DNA of 9,167 bases, taken from contig PXTR01000024.1 of assembly GCA_003023245.1 (NCBI GenBank), positions 1 through 9,167 of the forward strand, in the 5' to 3' direction. The stretch's first letter is position 1. Every line of letters starts with the position of its first letter. Positions 1 through 8,967 of the stretch are shown piece after piece. Below the pieces are notes generated by a model. The model made no database searches. It saw nothing but the letters and a program-made list of their open reading frames with translations, and was not told the origin of the DNA. Both the position numbers and the translations under genes were made by a program. This DNA comes from Bacteroidetes bacterium QS_8_68_15. GTDB taxonomy: Bacteria; Bacteroidota; Rhodothermia; Rhodothermales; Salinibacteraceae.

Positions 1-13
1 CCCCGGTTCTCCT

Positions 14-83
14 CAATCGCCAATCGAAAACCGACAATCGAAAACCGACAATCGAAAACCGACAATCGAAAATCGCCAATCGC
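14..83. repeat. Heptameric tandem repeat array, ten units, downstream of menC
   Basis: Ten consecutive 7-bp units run without interruption, with consensus [CA]AA[TC]CG[AC]. CAATCGA and AAACCGA alternate in the middle, giving a 14-bp super-period repeated about three times (21-62), and the edges drift to CAATCGC. The array ends about 11 bp before the menC stop codon, so it lies in the 3' region of that transcript or in the gap to the next gene. It encodes nothing I can recognise and has no clear hairpin. The 7-bp period recalls the short heptamer repeats known from cyanobacterial genomes, but the sequence differs. The period is directly visible; any function is unknown. Confidence 0.9.
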
Positions 84-94
84 ACGACCGATCG

Positions 95-3164: not shown

Positions 3165-4934
3165 CTAAGCGCCGAGCGCCTCGCGCACAGCCTCGGCGAC
3201 GCGCGTGTCCAGCCGCTCGTGGAGGGCGCGGTTTTCGCGGCGGTCGGTGCGCACTTCGATGAGGGCGGGCGCGCCGCTGCGGCTGCGCTCGCGGTAGGCA
3301 GCGGCGAAGGCCTCAGGCGTGGCGGGTCGGTCGTAGGGAAGGTCGAACATCGCGGCGGCCTCTTCGAAGGAGCGATCGTGCGGCGTCGTGAAGTGCGGCT
3401 CGAATACGTCGGGCCGCTCGGCGATGGGCAGGAAGTGAAAGATGCCCCCGCCGCCGTTGTTGACGGCCACGACGGTGACCGGTCGGTCGCGGAGCAGCGC
3501 CAGCGCGCCCAGGTCGTGTAGCAGCGCCAGGTCGCCGATCAGCAGCGTGACGGGGTGCTCTTCGCCATCGGGGGCCGCTTCGGACCGTCCCGTGCAGACG
3601 CCCGCGGCGGTGGCGACGGTGCCGTCGATGCCGCTGGCGCCGCGGTTGGCGAAGACGGGCGTCAGCGGCGCGTCGCTGAGGCTGTCTGCGCCGGCGAAGC
3701 CATCCGCGTCGGGGCCGGGACGCGCGTAGCGGTTGAAATCGCGCACGGGCATGCTGCTGCCCAGCACGAGCGCCCCGCCGGGCGGGCGATGCCGACTCAC
3801 GAGGCGCGCGACGAGTGGTTCGCTCACGGCGTCGGCCTCGGCGGCGAAGGCGTCGAGCGTGCGCGCGGCGGCTTCGTTTGCGCGCTGCCATTGGCTCTCG
3901 TCGCCGTCGCGTGGTCCCGGCGCATCGAGGCGCTCGACCAGGCCGTCGCAGAACGGCGCGACCGTGGTTTCGACGTGATCGGTCACGCGGTGGTCGGGAT
4001 CGAGGCGGCGCGCGTCGGGGCGCGCGACGACGTAGGGGGCGGGGCGGTGCTCCTCGAGCATGAGGCGCAGGCGTTTCGAGACCGTGCGCCCGCCCAGGTG
4101 GATCACCGCCTCGGGCGCGCAGGCTTCGCGGAAGGCGTCGCTGACGAGCAGTTGGTCGACGTACGGCACGATGGGTCCATCGGCCGCGAGGCGCAGGCGC
4201 GAGGTGGCGTCCGGCGCGAGCGGCCAGCCCAGCGCCTCGGCCAGGCGAACGGCGGCGTGCGCGTCGGCCTCCGCGTCGAGGCGGTCGGGCGGTGCGGCGG
4301 GCACGGCGACGGGCCGCCGGGTGTACGGGCGGTCGCCCCGTCGCCGGCGCGCAGGGGCGTCAGCTTCTTGCCGTGTCTTTTCGTCTTCCCGACGGGGCGG
4401 ATCGAGCGGTTTGCGAAACATGCAGTTGAGGTGCACCGGGCCGGGCGGGGAGCGGCGCGCGAAGTGCACCGCCTGGTCGGCCGTAGTAAGCAGCATCTCG
4501 GGCGCGATTTCGTCGGTCGGCGCGGGCAGATCGACGGCCCAGCGCGTGTATTTGCCGAAGATCCCCGGCTGGTCGATGGTCTGGTTGGCGCCGGTGTCAC
4601 GCTTTTCGGGCGGGCGGTCGGCGGTGAGCAGAAGGATCGGCACGCCGTCGGTGTGCGCTTCGACGGCGGCGGGCAACCCGTTGGCCACCGCCGTGCCGCT
4701 GGTGGTGATCCAGCCGGCGGGGCGGCCGGTCGCACGCCCGTAGCCCAGCGCGGCGAAGGCCGAGGCGCGCTCGTCGTAGTGAAGCGTGGCCTGCGCCCGC
4801 TCGTGGCGCGCCACCGCGGCGACCAACGGCGTCGAACGCGAGCCGGGCGCGACGAAGAAGCGCCTCACCCCGCAGCGGATGAGCTCCTCGACCAGTAGGC
4901 CGGCCCAGCGGGTGTTGAGGCGAGCGGTGGACAT
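3165..4934 (-). CDS. menD: SEPHCHC synthase (MenD), thiamine-diphosphate enzyme
   Basis: MenD uses ThDP and Mg2+ to decarboxylate 2-oxoglutarate and add the succinyl-semialdehyde carbanion to isochorismate, forming SEPHCHC; it is the committed step of the pathway. The 589-residue protein is slightly longer than usual (about 550-580), mainly through a charged linker at about 177-215. Pyr domain: APGSRSTPL (R33), YDERASAFAALG with the ThDP-activating E55, TTSGTAVAN (77-85) and DRPPEKRDTGANQTIDQ (R107, Q118). Middle domain: SKRLR (286-290). PP domain: GSSMPVRD (392-399, S394, R398), NRGASGIDG (430-438), then the ThDP/Mg motif GDLALLHDLGAL (467-478) ending in VNNGGGGIFHFLP (491-503). All active-site residues I can place are intact. 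The ATG is preceded by a short A-run (CAAAAATG) and no Shine-Dalgarno sequence. The 175-bp gap to menF upstream is mostly occupied by a repeat element; the TAG stop is in frame with menH. Confidence 0.98.
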   Translation of the reverse strand: MSTARLNTRWAGLLVEELIRCGVRRFFVAPGSRSTPLVAAVARHERAQATLHYDERASAFAALGYGRATGRPAGWITTSGTAVANGLPAAVEAHTDGVPILLLTADRPPEKRDTGANQTIDQPGIFGKYTRWAVDLPAPTDEIAPEMLLTTADQAVHFARRSPPGPVHLNCMFRKPLDPPRREDEKTRQEADAPARRRRGDRPYTRRPVAVPAAPPDRLDAEADAHAAVRLAEALGWPLAPDATSRLRLAADGPIVPYVDQLLVSDAFREACAPEAVIHLGGRTVSKRLRLMLEEHRPAPYVVARPDARRLDPDHRVTDHVETTVAPFCDGLVERLDAPGPRDGDESQWQRANEAAARTLDAFAAEADAVSEPLVARLVSRHRPPGGALVLGSSMPVRDFNRYARPGPDADGFAGADSLSDAPLTPVFANRGASGIDGTVATAAGVCTGRSEAAPDGEEHPVTLLIGDLALLHDLGALALLRDRPVTVVAVNNGGGGIFHFLPIAERPDVFEPHFTTPHDRSFEEAAAMFDLPYDRPATPEAFAAAYRERSRSGAPALIEVRTDRRENRALHERLDTRVAEAVREALGA

Positions 4935-4960
4935 TTTTGCAGTCGCGTTGCTTGTATACT

Positions 4961-5122
4961 GCGTGATGCGTGTTGCGTGATGCGTGAGGACAGCAGGCCG
5001 ATTCGTTCGCGGTCAGAGATCTACCGGCAGACGCCTTTCCGAAAGGGAAACGCTTGAATCTGTTCTCAACGACCGCAGATCAGCAACCTCACGCATCACG
5101 AATCACGCATCACGGATCACGA
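4961..5122. repeat. Intergenic repeat element, copy 1 (heptamer arrays in inverted orientation)
   Basis: The left end holds four heptamers GCGTG[AT][TG] (4961-4988). The right end holds five heptamers [CA]TCACGN (5088-5122) in the opposite orientation. Together they make an inverted repeat of 30 bp with 27 matches by eye (4960-4989 against 5087-5116) around a core of about 97 bp. The core matches copy 2 (6565-6709) in order and spacing: GACAGCAGGCCGA at 4989-5001, a block at 5020-5034, TTTCCGAAAG at 5036-5045 and a 22-bp block at 5067-5088. A small CCTTT/AAAGG hairpin lies at about 5035-5046. The element fills the menF-menD gap, ends 26 bp before the menD ATG and runs into menF, whose stop codon it supplies. 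It has no ORF. Best description: ERIC-like or MITE-like non-coding repeat; function unknown. Confidence 0.8.
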
Positions 5123-6561
5123 AAAAGCGCTGTAAAGTTCCCCAGCTTCTGTTCCAGTTCGTTCCACTCGGCCTCCGGCTCAGAACCGTCCACCAGCCCG
5201 GCCCCGGCGAACAGGTCGAGCCGGTCGTCGTCGCCGTCGTTCGGGCGTCGCACCAGCCCGGAGCGGATGCCCACGGCCAGCTCGGCCGCGGGCGCGCCGC
5301 CTTCGCCCCGCCCCACCCAGCCGACGGGCGCGGCGTACCACCCTCGGTCGAAGGGCTCGCGCCGGCGAATGAACCGCTGCGCCGCCGCCGACGGGCGACC
5401 GCTCACGGCAGGGGTCGGGTGGAGCGCGCCCAGCACGTCGGCGGGCGAAACGCCGTCGCGGAGCTGCCCCCGGAAGCGGGCGTAGAGGTGGCGCCCCCGC
5501 TGGAGGGTAAGCGCGGCCGCGTCGCGCTCATCGAGCGAGGTGCACAACGGGTCGAGCGCCTCGCGGACGTAGCGCTGCACGAAGGCGTGCTCGCGGCGGT
5601 CCTTGTCGCTTTCCAGCAGCTCCCGACGGAGCGCATCGTCCGCATCGGGAGCGGAGGCGCGGGGGCGCGTGCCGGCCACCGCTTCGCTCCACACGCGGCG
5701 TCCGCGCTGGCGGAAGAGGCGCTCCGGCGAGACGCCCAGAAAGGCCCCGGCGCGGCGCGGCTGAAACAAAAACGCGAACCCGCCGGGCGCGAGCGCGCGG
5801 AGGCGCTCCAGCACAGGCACCGGATCGAGCGACTGCTCGAAGCGAAACGTCGTTCGCCGCGCGAGGACGACTTTTTGCACGGTCCCCTCGTCGATGGCGC
5901 GCAGCGCCGCCTCGACGCGCTCCTCCCAGGCCGACCGCCCGGGGTGGTCGTCGCGGCGCGTCGGGCGCGGCAGGGCTGGGTCCGCCGACGAGGACGGAGC
6001 AGGCGGCGCGAGTTGCTCGATCTCCGCCGCTACCGGCCCGGCCTTTTCGCCGGGAGCGAGGTGACAGGCGAGGCGCGCTTCACCGTCGTCATCGTCGGAG
6101 CCGTCGCGAACGCGGCGCAGCTCGAAGCGCGGGAGCACGAACGCGCCGGGGCCGAAGTGCTGCCACCCGTCAGCGGCCGCTCGCGCGCGGTCGAAGCGCA
6201 CGCCGCCGTAGCAGCGCAGCGCGTCGGGCCCGGACGCCGCTTCGTCGTCGGAAGACGGCTCGTTTTGTAGCCGTTCGTCGAGGTGGGCAGGCGTCTCGAA
6301 GCGATCAGCGACGCCGGCAAACGCGCGCGCCTCGCCGCCGCGGTCCTTCCAGAACCCGCGCGGCGCCGGCTGGGCGCGAAGCCAGCCGATCAGGTCGGCA
6401 TCCGACACGCCCACCTCGACGCGGCGAAAGCCTTGCCTGGCCCCCTCTTCTTCCGGACTCCGACGGCGCACCGCCCGGGCCAGCACGCGGCCGGCGCCGC
6501 GCAAGCCGTCGGACCGGTCGGCAGCAGGATCGGCACGTCGCGGCGTCGAGCCGGCGGGCAT
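5110..6561 (-). CDS. menF: Isochorismate synthase (MenF)
   Basis: MenF isomerises chorismate to isochorismate with Mg2+, diverting chorismate into menaquinone. The 483-residue length fits menaquinone-type isochorismate synthases. The variable N-terminal half (1-205) is followed by the chorismate-binding domain. Visible motifs: QKVVLARR (229-236) with the water-activating lysine K230, GAFLGVSPERLF (272-283), SEAVAGTRPR (292-301) with the expected general acid E293, SDKDRREH (318-325) with metal ligand E324, LHPTPAVSGRP (380-390), FDRGWYAAPVGW (404-415), GIRS (431-434) and AGAGLVDGSEPEAEWNELEQK (452-472). The K/E pair and the Mg2+ glutamates mark it as an isochorismate synthase rather than anthranilate or aminodeoxychorismate synthase; salicylate synthase is unlikely next to menD. 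The ATG lies 3 bp from a heptamer array, without a Shine-Dalgarno sequence. Oddity: the last codons and the TGA stop lie inside the heptamer array of the menF-menD element. Confidence 0.96.
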   Translation of the reverse strand: MPAGSTPRRADPAADRSDGLRGAGRVLARAVRRRSPEEEGARQGFRRVEVGVSDADLIGWLRAQPAPRGFWKDRGGEARAFAGVADRFETPAHLDERLQNEPSSDDEAASGPDALRCYGGVRFDRARAAADGWQHFGPGAFVLPRFELRRVRDGSDDDDGEARLACHLAPGEKAGPVAAEIEQLAPPAPSSSADPALPRPTRRDDHPGRSAWEERVEAALRAIDEGTVQKVVLARRTTFRFEQSLDPVPVLERLRALAPGGFAFLFQPRRAGAFLGVSPERLFRQRGRRVWSEAVAGTRPRASAPDADDALRRELLESDKDRREHAFVQRYVREALDPLCTSLDERDAAALTLQRGRHLYARFRGQLRDGVSPADVLGALHPTPAVSGRPSAAAQRFIRRREPFDRGWYAAPVGWVGRGEGGAPAAELAVGIRSGLVRRPNDGDDDRLDLFAGAGLVDGSEPEAEWNELEQKLGNFTALFRDP

Positions 6562-6564
6562 GGG

Positions 6565-6709
6565 GCGTGATTCGTGATGCGTGATGACAACAGGCTGAAG
6601 AGCTTGCGCCTCGCGTCTGCCAGCAACGCGATTCAGAAAGCGTGAGGTTCGAACGAATGCTCCTTCAACCTCCGTAGACGCGCAACCCTGGGGGCATCAC
6701 GTTTCACGC
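6565..6709. repeat. Intergenic repeat element, copy 2 (diverged)
   Basis: The left end has three heptamers [GT]CGTGAT (6565-6585). The right end has CATCACG plus TCACG (6695-6708), spaced as in copy 1 and in the opposite orientation, though more decayed. Core blocks colinear with copy 1: GACAACAGGCTGA at 6586-6598 (11 of 13 matches), TCTGCCAGCAACGC at 6616-6629, ATTCAGAAAG at 6631-6640 (8 of 10) and a 22-bp block at 6666-6687 (16 of 22). Offsets from the first block are 0, 30, 45 and 80 here against 0, 31, 47 and 78 in copy 1. It occupies most of the 168-bp gap between the acylase gene and menF, beginning 3 bp upstream of the menF ATG and ending about 20 bp after the acylase stop. I see no ORF and no convincing promoter. 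Confidence 0.72.
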
Positions 6710-6729
6710 ACGACGATTCAGGCGCCACG

Positions 6730-8967
6730 CTAAAATCGCGCTCGCACCGCCTCCGGCGTCGCCGTCGTGCCGGCGGGGACGAGGCGGGTGGTGCTGCTCG
6801 GAGCGCGCGCGCCCTCGAAGCGGAGCGGGAGCGGGTCGGGGGCGCTGCGCTGCGCACGGTAGCGCCCGAAGGGGGTGCTCGTGTCGAAGCGGCGGCGGCG
6901 CACGTAGAGCGTCCGCCACCGGTCGGTGCTGAGCCAGGCTTCGTAGGCAGCGGGGGCCGGCAGGCCGAGGCTGATCGGCGAGGCGCCCTGGCGCAGCGTC
7001 GAAAGGTGACCGCCGCCGGGAATGTCGATGGGCGCGTAGCGCGTTTCGGCGAGCGTGCGGAGGCGCCTCCCCGAGAGCGAGTCGCTCCAGCCGGGGAAGC
7101 GGCGCGTGTCGGGGGCGACCCGCTCCCAGCGCCACTGCTCGATGTCTTGCCCGTGCAGGCGCGCCAGCCGCGAAACGGCGTCCCCGAGCAGGCGGAAGCG
7201 GCGTCGGTCTTCGCGGGCGCGCAGCGAGTCGGACGTCGCCAGCGAGTCGGTTCGGGAGCGCACGCCCGGCAGGCGGCCCGTGTCGCGTCGGTAGGCGGCG
7301 ACCCACGTGTCGAAGATGGACGCGCCGATGGACGCGCCGTCGTAGGAGAAGTTCCAGTTGCGCAGATAGCGAATGGCGCGCCCGAAAAGGTCGGTACGCT
7401 CTTCGTAGGTGAAGGTGCCGCTCCGCGTACGCGAGAGCGAGTCCACGGAGGCGAGCAGGTCGGGGGCGACCCGGGCGGCCCAGGCGCTCGAATCGGCGCG
7501 CACCCACTGTTGCGGGCGGATGGGGGCGGCGGCGGCCGTGTCCGCCTCGGCGTCGAACTGCGTGAGGCGCGTCTGCACCTGTTCGGCCAGGGACGGCGTC
7601 CAGGCCGGCGTGCCGGAGGCCACGAGCCCCTCGTCGAAGCGCACGGCCCGCGCGGGCGTACCGAAGAGGGAAAAGCTACCGGAAGAGTCGGCCGTGAGGC
7701 CGCCGGCGCGCAGCAGTTGGAAGCCGGCGCTGCCCCCGCTCTCCCCCCCGCCGGGCGGTTCGCCGCCGGCCAGGGCGCGCCAGGCCGCCAGGTCGGTGAC
7801 GGGCCGGAAGCCGCCCCAGCGTACCTGCCAGAGCGAGTCGGCGCGCGCAGTGTCGGGACGCGCGGTGTCGGGACGCGCGGCGGCTCCGGCTCCGGCGGTG
7901 CGCGTCGTGTCGGAGCGCAATCTCGTGGCGGGGGGATCGCTCTGCGCAGAGCCGGAGCGTGCGGGCGCGCCATCGCCCAGCAACAGGGCGTCGTCGGTGC
8001 GGCGCATGGTGACGAGGTGCTCGCTGCCGTCGGCGCCGAGGATGCGCTCATGCAGCGGCTTATCGGCGCTCGTGTCGTAGGGGGCGCGCACCACGTCGAG
8101 CGGCGGGCCGGACGGCAGGAGCGCCCAGGCGCGGCGTCCGGCGCGTCCGGCCGGCAGGAAGGGCGTGCCCGGCAGCGAAAGGGCGGCGACGTGGCCCTGG
8201 TCGCCGGGGCGTCGCAGGAGCACCGCCTGGAGCACCGGGATCGCCGACGCGCCGTAGACGTGGCGGTAAAAGAGGTGCGTCGCTTCGGGGCCGCGGGCGG
8301 CCCAGGCGGCGCTCTGGTCGAAGTCGTGCAGGTGCAGCCAGCGGCGCAGCGAGCTGTCGGCGCGCAGGAAGCGGCGGGCGGCGGGCGGGGCGCCGGGCCC
8401 GAGGCTGTCGGGCCGCGGGGGCGAGCTGGCGAGGTAGGCGTAGAGGCGCTCGATGGCCAGCGCGTGCCACGGCTCCCAGGCGTCGGGCGTTTGCTCCAGC
8501 AGCGCGAACTCGCCCCGGTTCCGCACGGCCTCGCTTCCGAGGGCCGCGTTCATGCCGTCGGCGTAGGCGCGCAGCAGCGCTTTTTGCTCACCGGGAAGAT
8601 CTGTGTAGGCGCGGCGCGCCAGCTCGGCGAAGCCCAGGCGGCGCGTCAGGCGGTCGAGCCGCAGGGGGCGCTCGCCGAACCACTCGCCGAGGCGCCCGGT
8701 GGCCGTCTGGCGCCACAGCGTCACCAGCCAGGGCCGTTCGGCGCCGTGGACGTAGCCGAGCGCCGCGTAGCGGTCGCGCACCGAGTCGGCGCGGATGGTC
8801 GCCACGCCCGCGTCGTTCCAGGCGATCTCGACGGGGCGCGCGAGGCCCGGCACGCGGTCCTCGGCGGGCGGGGCGGTGCTCACGCCGTACGTGAAATACC
8901 ACAGCGCCCCCCCGGCGACGATCAGTACGGCGAGCACGGCGAGGAGGGGGTAGAGCGCGCGACGCAC
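6730..8967 (-). CDS. Penicillin acylase family protein (Ntn hydrolase), membrane-anchored, catalytic motifs degenerate
   Basis: Family members are amide hydrolases that self-cleave to expose an N-terminal Ser. From GTG 8967 the product has 745 residues: RR, then one hydrophobic segment (about 4-28) that should anchor it facing the periplasm. The alpha-chain signature follows (NDAGVATIRADS, YAALGYVHGAERPW, TGRLGEWFGE). The processing site aligns with QSAAW (S219, codon 8311-8313), where the family normally has GSN.W. SLPGTPF and AGRAGRRAWAL (about 264-282), DLAAWRALAGG (392-402), LRNWNFSYDGASIGASIFDTW (535-555) and IPGGGHLSTL (649-658) keep family order. Missing or altered: the Asn after the Ser, the NDPH segment, the usual ANN (here GLVASGTPAW) and the C-terminal GQSG. 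A low-complexity Arg/Ala/Asp/Thr insert lies at 357-377. Substrate unknown; activity doubtful. An upstream TTG at 9159 would extend it through repeats and the promoter and is disfavoured. Confidence 0.85.
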   Translation of the reverse strand: MRRALYPLLAVLAVLIVAGGALWYFTYGVSTAPPAEDRVPGLARPVEIAWNDAGVATIRADSVRDRYAALGYVHGAERPWLVTLWRQTATGRLGEWFGERPLRLDRLTRRLGFAELARRAYTDLPGEQKALLRAYADGMNAALGSEAVRNRGEFALLEQTPDAWEPWHALAIERLYAYLASSPPRPDSLGPGAPPAARRFLRADSSLRRWLHLHDFDQSAAWAARGPEATHLFYRHVYGASAIPVLQAVLLRRPGDQGHVAALSLPGTPFLPAGRAGRRAWALLPSGPPLDVVRAPYDTSADKPLHERILGADGSEHLVTMRRTDDALLLGDGAPARSGSAQSDPPATRLRSDTTRTAGAGAAARPDTARPDTARADSLWQVRWGGFRPVTDLAAWRALAGGEPPGGGESGGSAGFQLLRAGGLTADSSGSFSLFGTPARAVRFDEGLVASGTPAWTPSLAEQVQTRLTQFDAEADTAAAAPIRPQQWVRADSSAWAARVAPDLLASVDSLSRTRSGTFTYEERTDLFGRAIRYLRNWNFSYDGASIGASIFDTWVAAYRRDTGRLPGVRSRTDSLATSDSLRAREDRRRFRLLGDAVSRLARLHGQDIEQWRWERVAPDTRRFPGWSDSLSGRRLRTLAETRYAPIDIPGGGHLSTLRQGASPISLGLPAPAAYEAWLSTDRWRTLYVRRRRFDTSTPFGRYRAQRSAPDPLPLRFEGARAPSSTTRLVPAGTTATPEAVRARF
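7851..7880. repeat. Perfect 15-bp tandem duplication inside the acylase gene
   Basis: TGTCGGGACGCGCGG occurs twice in direct succession. It keeps the reading frame and encodes a doubled Arg-Pro-Asp-Thr-Ala unit in the low-complexity insert of the acylase. A 6-bp CTCCGG duplication follows at about 7883-7894. It is probably a slippage-prone spacer that could vary in copy number between strains. Confidence 0.9.

Follow-up and report, generated by a model that had tools for sequence, protein, structure and literature searches.

The window, by which we mean the whole 9,167-nucleotide stretch analysed, carries menC, menA, menH, menD and menF on the minus strand, with a penicillin-amidase-family gene beyond. 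The isochorismate synthase gene menF (5110..6561, minus strand) lies between two copies, A and B, of a small element whose coordinates are given on the plus strand. Copy A (4961-5121) occupies the menF/menD gap, and menD (3165..4934, minus strand) lies downstream of it in the transcription sense. It consists of a left array of CGTGATG-type heptamers (4961..4987), which is one arm of inverted repeat I3, a core (4988..5088) that is homologous to that of B and shows no conserved fold, and a right array of the inverted heptamer (5089..5121), which holds the menF stop codon. Copy B (6565-6709) lies between the amidase-family gene and menF; its left array (6565..6584; inverted repeat I20) comes within 3 bp of the menF start codon (6559-6561), its core (6585..6688) is 0.81 identical to the family consensus, and its right array (6694..6709) is short. 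The plan of the unit on the plus strand is CGTGATG-type heptamers, a core of ~97-100 bp and the heptamers inverted, ~150 bp in total. Direct repeat D7 (41 nt, 80%) corresponds to the left blocks of A and B, and I3 (28 nt, 93%) to the arms of copy A. The sequence-only reading had placed copy A in an intergenic gap and each copy just 5' of a men start codon. This describes menD (copy A) and menF (copy B) correctly, but A lies equally 3' of menF and B equally 3' of the amidase-family gene, and copy A is not intergenic throughout: its right array, running to 5121, overlaps the 3' end of menF.

At the 5' edge of the window (1-84), just past the menC stop, lies another heptamer array, of the CGATTGT/CGGTTTT type, whose far side falls outside the window. 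In the related genome G008, whose men locus is 80-82% DNA-identical to the window, a full copy of the CGTGATG-ended element stands at the same place after menC (L107:179-330).

We aligned A (4950-5130) with B (6555-6720), using 2000 dinucleotide-shuffled pairs as the control. The full sequences gave a colinear local alignment of ~150 bp in the same orientation with a score of 50 (2/-3 scoring; best shuffle 32), which bears out the earlier description of two colinear, equally oriented copies. For the cores without arrays the outcome depended on the scoring: scores of 156 at 5/-4 (shuffle maximum 117) and 25 at 1/-1 (shuffle maximum 20) were reached by 0/2000 shuffles, whereas the strict 2/-3 score of 20 was reached by 99/2000 and is not significant. 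A core-only profile built from 15 cores of the window and of a second relative, G001, with zero G008 sequence, found 70 places in G008 and 0 in reversed G008; another, built from 38 G008 cores, found 77 places in G008, 41 of them outside the training set, and 0 in reversed DNA. These results confirm that A and B are homologous beyond their heptamer arrays.

Copies in related genomes and occupancy of gene gaps

Loci of relatives came from a MenD scan, which gave L001 (MAG QS_8_68_28, 67% identity) and 15 other loci, and genomes were searched with copy A, one G001 copy and a sequence-only model of four copies. Full-length homologues were present in G001, to which L001 belongs, and in great number in G008. 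The G008 sample comprised 60 stretches (809,321 bases) picked for model matches on their contigs, so the 102 matches found there by iterated nhmmer, 79 of them at E<1e-9, give a copy density that is biased upward; in 926,746 bases read from G001 there were 15 matches at E<=1e-3. When a 58-copy model was run against 119 relatives, with the best 25 candidates per genome scored and the counts being lower bounds, at least 8 of the 119 gave matches at E<=1e-5 among those listed: several apiece in G008, G001, G007 and G003, and one or two, all weak, in each of four others. The further copies for which a search had been proposed thus exist; they are numerous in G008 and less so in G001, G007 and G003. 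Agreement with the consensus is 0.83 per position in the arrays and 0.68 in the cores.

No near-identical distant copies were found in G008. The closest pair (L163:918-1073 and 1594-1695; 89% core identity) lies 676 bp apart on one contig, and the copies at L133:19733 and L134:1756, ~2 kb apart on one contig, have 19 of 22 departures from the consensus in common. Since the only clearly close pairs are neighbours on the same contig, local duplication does occur.

By a simple ORF caller, which makes the gap classes approximate, the 79 G008 copies fall into 45 tandem, 11 convergent and 8 divergent gaps, with another 9 at the edge of a stretch and 6 within crude ORFs; those in tandem gaps run 25 with the gene direction and 20 against it, showing no orientation bias. 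The genes on either side of 21 G008 copies both had counterparts in the G001 stretches, no more than 2.5 kb from one another. Three of these gaps are occupied in both genomes, in equal orientation (L142/L037, L146/L053 and L155/L218), and 18 hold no element in G001 at E<=1e-3. From the 18 we dropped one whose interval spans menF and regarded three as weak (two with intervals >1 kb, one with protein identities of 43 and 37%), leaving 14 fair empty sites. In the window and G008 alike, both men gaps hold a copy, again in equal orientation; by eye no element is present in the menF-menD gap of L001, L002 (GSL.Bin8) or L004 (Salinibacter altiplanensis). The contrast of occupied with empty orthologous gaps points to mobility, and together with the many G008 copies and the lack of orientation bias it favours one of the two alternatives raised by the sequence-only reading, a dispersed ERIC/MITE-like repeat. 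No clear target duplication was found at the ten orthologous gaps read, where the flanks are too diverged.

Five pairs of copies share a gap. Their core identity of 0.47-0.60 (all pairs: mean 0.55, sd 0.06) places them between the 9th and 77th percentile among the full set of 4077; by the share of consensus departures that the two copies of a pair have in common, they lie between the 1st and the 91st; in a separate ranking they stood 46 and 54 of 61 and 65, 59 and 20 of 72. Inherited similarity at the same gap is ruled out as a visible signal, the five pairs being no more alike than random ones, and their unlikeness may reflect saturation, replacement or repeated insertion. A rearrangement hot spot was also rejected: 1 of 20 element gaps was broken, as against 2 of 41 element-free gaps of >=100 bp (7 more at stretch edges set aside).

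Heptamer arrays as ends and as a source of stop codons

Arrays with periods 7 and 14 are enriched in G008 (150 and 168, as against 4-40 at periods 5, 8, 10, 11 and 13; counts at multiples of 3 are raised by codons), and the period-7 excess in G001 is slight (34, as against 27 at period 8). Where two similar arrays lay 15-260 bp from each other, the pair was inverted in 13 cases and direct in one in G008, and inverted in one case in G001. Other heptamers follow the same plan (L117:1140-1226, L145:1588-1738 and L150:587-679), and Salinibacter altiplanensis is among the relatives that carry short versions, whose cores measure ~10-35 bp.

A search of 119 genomes for the inward pattern CGTGANNCGTGA-N5..35-TCACGNNTCACG gave 195 forward matches, overlaps within longer arrays counted, in 21 genomes; in the same set the outward order was found in 0/119. 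G008 contributed one inward match and G001, G003 and G007 none, because the spacers of their units are longer or the letters differ. When the pattern was relaxed in its letters and in its spacer (now up to 138 bp), the ratio of inward to outward arrays was 16:0 in G008, 1:0 in G001 and 2:0 in the window. Array polarity is fixed and inward-facing. Descent within one family could also preserve one polarity, though the short cores look unrelated by eye. Covariation of whole arms was rejected: across 61 copies, own partners scored 11.26 and permuted partners 11.73, with 8857 of 10,000 permutations reaching the own value. The innermost heptamer alone does covary between arms (55 of the 61 copies tabulated; Fisher p 7e-5, a value that overstates independence because the copies are related).

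Several other array-bearing units were seen. G032 holds 11 inward-array elements, most with a different ~35 bp core, the ends of which prolong the arms (GAGGGTGC ... GCACCCTC), and these apparently form a separate family with the same ends. In MAG QS_8_64_10, the two gaps (L003:5908-5981 and 4336-4480) carry inverted array pairs, of the GCGTATT type between menF and menD and of an AATTGAG-like type before menF. A second unit in G008, unit II, comprises hairpins such as GAGGGGATGACCTGTCGGCCCCTC or AAGGGCATGACCCGCAGGGGGCCCTT in or against heptamer arrays (L107, L113, L118, L120, L133, L134, L145, L148 and others) and is far better conserved than the cores of the main element; 3 of its 20 exact word matches (L115, L122 and L148:7663) are not adjacent to a CGTGA array. 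It looks REP-like, and closer to a REP than the main element is.

We suggest, tentatively, that inward heptamer arrays may be a distinct type of end common to the clade around Salinibacter, with fixed polarity, exchangeable heptamers and unrelated cores of ~10-100 bp. The ends, and not the cores, would then be conserved, recognised by a protein and able to supply a stop in all frames on both sides. We hold this broader proposal to be possible rather than probable.

The arrays also bear on how neighbouring genes end. In G008, 66 genes of at least ~100 codons run into a copy; 39 of them end between 14 bp outside and 33 bp inside the copy edge, 26 end earlier and 1 further in. Among the 39, the stop is TGA in 33 and the TGA of a CGTGA word in 24; in other G008 genes, TGA accounts for 327 of 552 stops (30 stopless frames set aside). 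The menF stop of the window is itself the TGA of a CGTGA word (minus strand, 5110-5112) inside the right array of copy A, and its G008 counterpart likewise stops on such a TGA; menF of L001 has its stop in its own sequence. Since 7 is not divisible by 3, a run of three CGTGATG units gives TGA in all three frames from either entry side, and the exit-side arm of the element holds no stop. As a general reason for polarity, stop supply was rejected: the CGATTGT-type heptamer holds no stop, and the stop-based polarity argument is therefore offered for the CGTGATG type only.

Origin of the repeat and alternative explanations

Taking the repeat family, its plan, its polarity, the polymorphism of its gaps and its supply of stop codons as observed, we lean towards regarding A and B as two copies of a small dispersed repeat that is non-autonomous and resembles MITEs or ERIC elements in its behaviour. 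Its copies would have arisen by transposition in trans, with the heptamer arrays, perhaps together with the bases just inside them, as the putative recognised ends, and slippage would keep the arrays array-like while the core drifts. An element inserted at gene ends would close the upstream frame cleanly. Closure of every frame on entry would explain how the element is tolerated between packed genes, and the all-frame stop would partly explain the absence of the outward order. Against a mobile repeat stand the lack of a clear target duplication, of a named mobiliser and of near-identical distant copies, the unlikeness of same-gap copies, and whole arms that pair no better with their own partners. 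Y1 transposase, the sole family searched, was absent from G001, G004, G007 and G008 and present once in G003, the assemblies of G001, G003, G007 and G008 being 1.6-1.9 Mb and maybe incomplete.

Several of these observations would also suit an element that has ceased to move and is retained, much like a BIME, for a job that it does at gene ends throughout the chromosome: it might halt ribosomes or RNA polymerase, shield mRNA or serve as a binding site for a nucleoid protein. That 39 of 66 entering genes end at a copy edge, that arrays are better conserved than cores, that array polarity is fixed and that the men gaps are occupied alike in the window and G008 all accord with such a job. Eight divergent gaps hold copies too, however, most comparable G001 gaps are empty and no fold is conserved, and we consider retention for this purpose unlikely.

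Local birth of the arrays by replication slippage and template switching, with inverted pairs as by-products and the core hitchhiking, would account for the enrichment of periods 7 and 14 in G008, for the similar array pairs built of other heptamers and for the covarying inner heptamers. It predicts both polarities, of which the outward one is absent, and the period-7 excess in G001 is small. A conserved core common to ~70 places cannot arise locally, which disfavours this origin for the core, and as an account of the element we rate it distinctly improbable.

A shared regulatory RNA was the other alternative of the sequence-only reading. An RNA or operator acting on the men genes would suit the position of both window copies just upstream of men start codons, the copies at equal gaps in the G008 men locus and the good fold of copy A on its own (z -6.5; B -2.2, E1 -2.4 and E2 -1.2, mostly via the arrays). 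The comparison of copies told against it: RNAalifold found 0 consensus pairs in 58 copies, where covariance had been suggested as a check, and Rfam gave no match at E<=1 for window positions 4800-6900. Moreover, in the window both copies run antisense to the men genes, and by eye the menF-menD gap is without the element in L001, L002 and L004. Because copies lie in every type of gap, and in tandem gaps in both orientations (25 versus 20), the element is not a men regulator, a very unlikely role that this spread refutes for practical purposes; there is nothing special in its lying next to two men start codons. That two GC-rich gaps with comparable simple repeats look alike by chance, for which the masked cores speak at strict scoring (99/2000), is refuted by the other core scorings and by the core-profile search (70 places versus 0 reversed) and can be dismissed.

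Reading A and B as copies of a MITE- or ERIC-like repeat gives a name to a repeat of high copy number in a poorly studied lineage of halophiles, where a gene-by-gene reading would call it a regulator. Its heptamer arrays act as inverted ends with a polarity and are not simple slippage repeats. The supply of stop codons is relevant to the question of how genomes with closely packed genes tolerate small repeats, and same-gap copies that have position and orientation in common but not sequence present a puzzle for repeat turnover.

Comparison with known repeats

In the searched open-access literature, judged by titles and the starts of abstracts, we found no description of this repeat, nor, in the portions of text covered, of heptamers as inverted polar ends of a common core. 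According to excerpts of two reports, ERICs, or enterobacterial intergenic repeat units, are ~127 bp long, mostly intergenic, quasi-palindromic and of high and variable copy number (PMC10969869, PMC2759123), and the present element resembles them in these respects. The likeness is one of description; here the ends are heptamer arrays of fixed polarity, and the phylum is different.

Like MITEs, the element is short (~150 bp), has no coding capacity, carries terminal inverted repeats in the form of inverted heptamer arrays at both ends, occurs in many dispersed copies and may be present at a site in one genome and missing from the orthologous site in another. In Porphyromonas gingivalis, a MITE is described, in the available part of the source, as containing a minisatellite; that tandem repeat is internal, whereas here the tandem heptamers are the inverted ends (PMC4596501). 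MITEs are also marked by a target duplication at insertion and by ends in common with an autonomous transposon; no duplication was clear in the ten gaps read, with their diverged flanks, and the search for the Y1 family found no parent transposase.

With REP/BIME repeats and their RAYT transposases, the comparison rests on high-copy extragenic palindromic repeats. REPs are 20-40 bp long with GTAG or CGTC tags, unlike the main element, and CGTC REPs are said, in the extract consulted, to be without a dedicated transposase (PMC3733652). A RAYT-driven REP was rejected on the Y1 search described above. Structured cis-regulatory RNAs are set apart by conserved structure and fixed orientation, against which stand the 0 pairs in 58 copies and the 25 to 20 split found here.

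In cyanobacterial STRR sequences, tandem heptamers likewise lie by genes, with mixed heptamers and indels of 7. The direct repeats of the heptamer TAACTGA known from Beggiatoaceae, Cyanobacteria and Bacteroidetes, as far as the accessible text of the report describes them, also place tandem heptamers beside genes and also show mixed heptamers and indels of 7; they differ in being direct and near start codons, with a single indirect repeat (PMC4679880).
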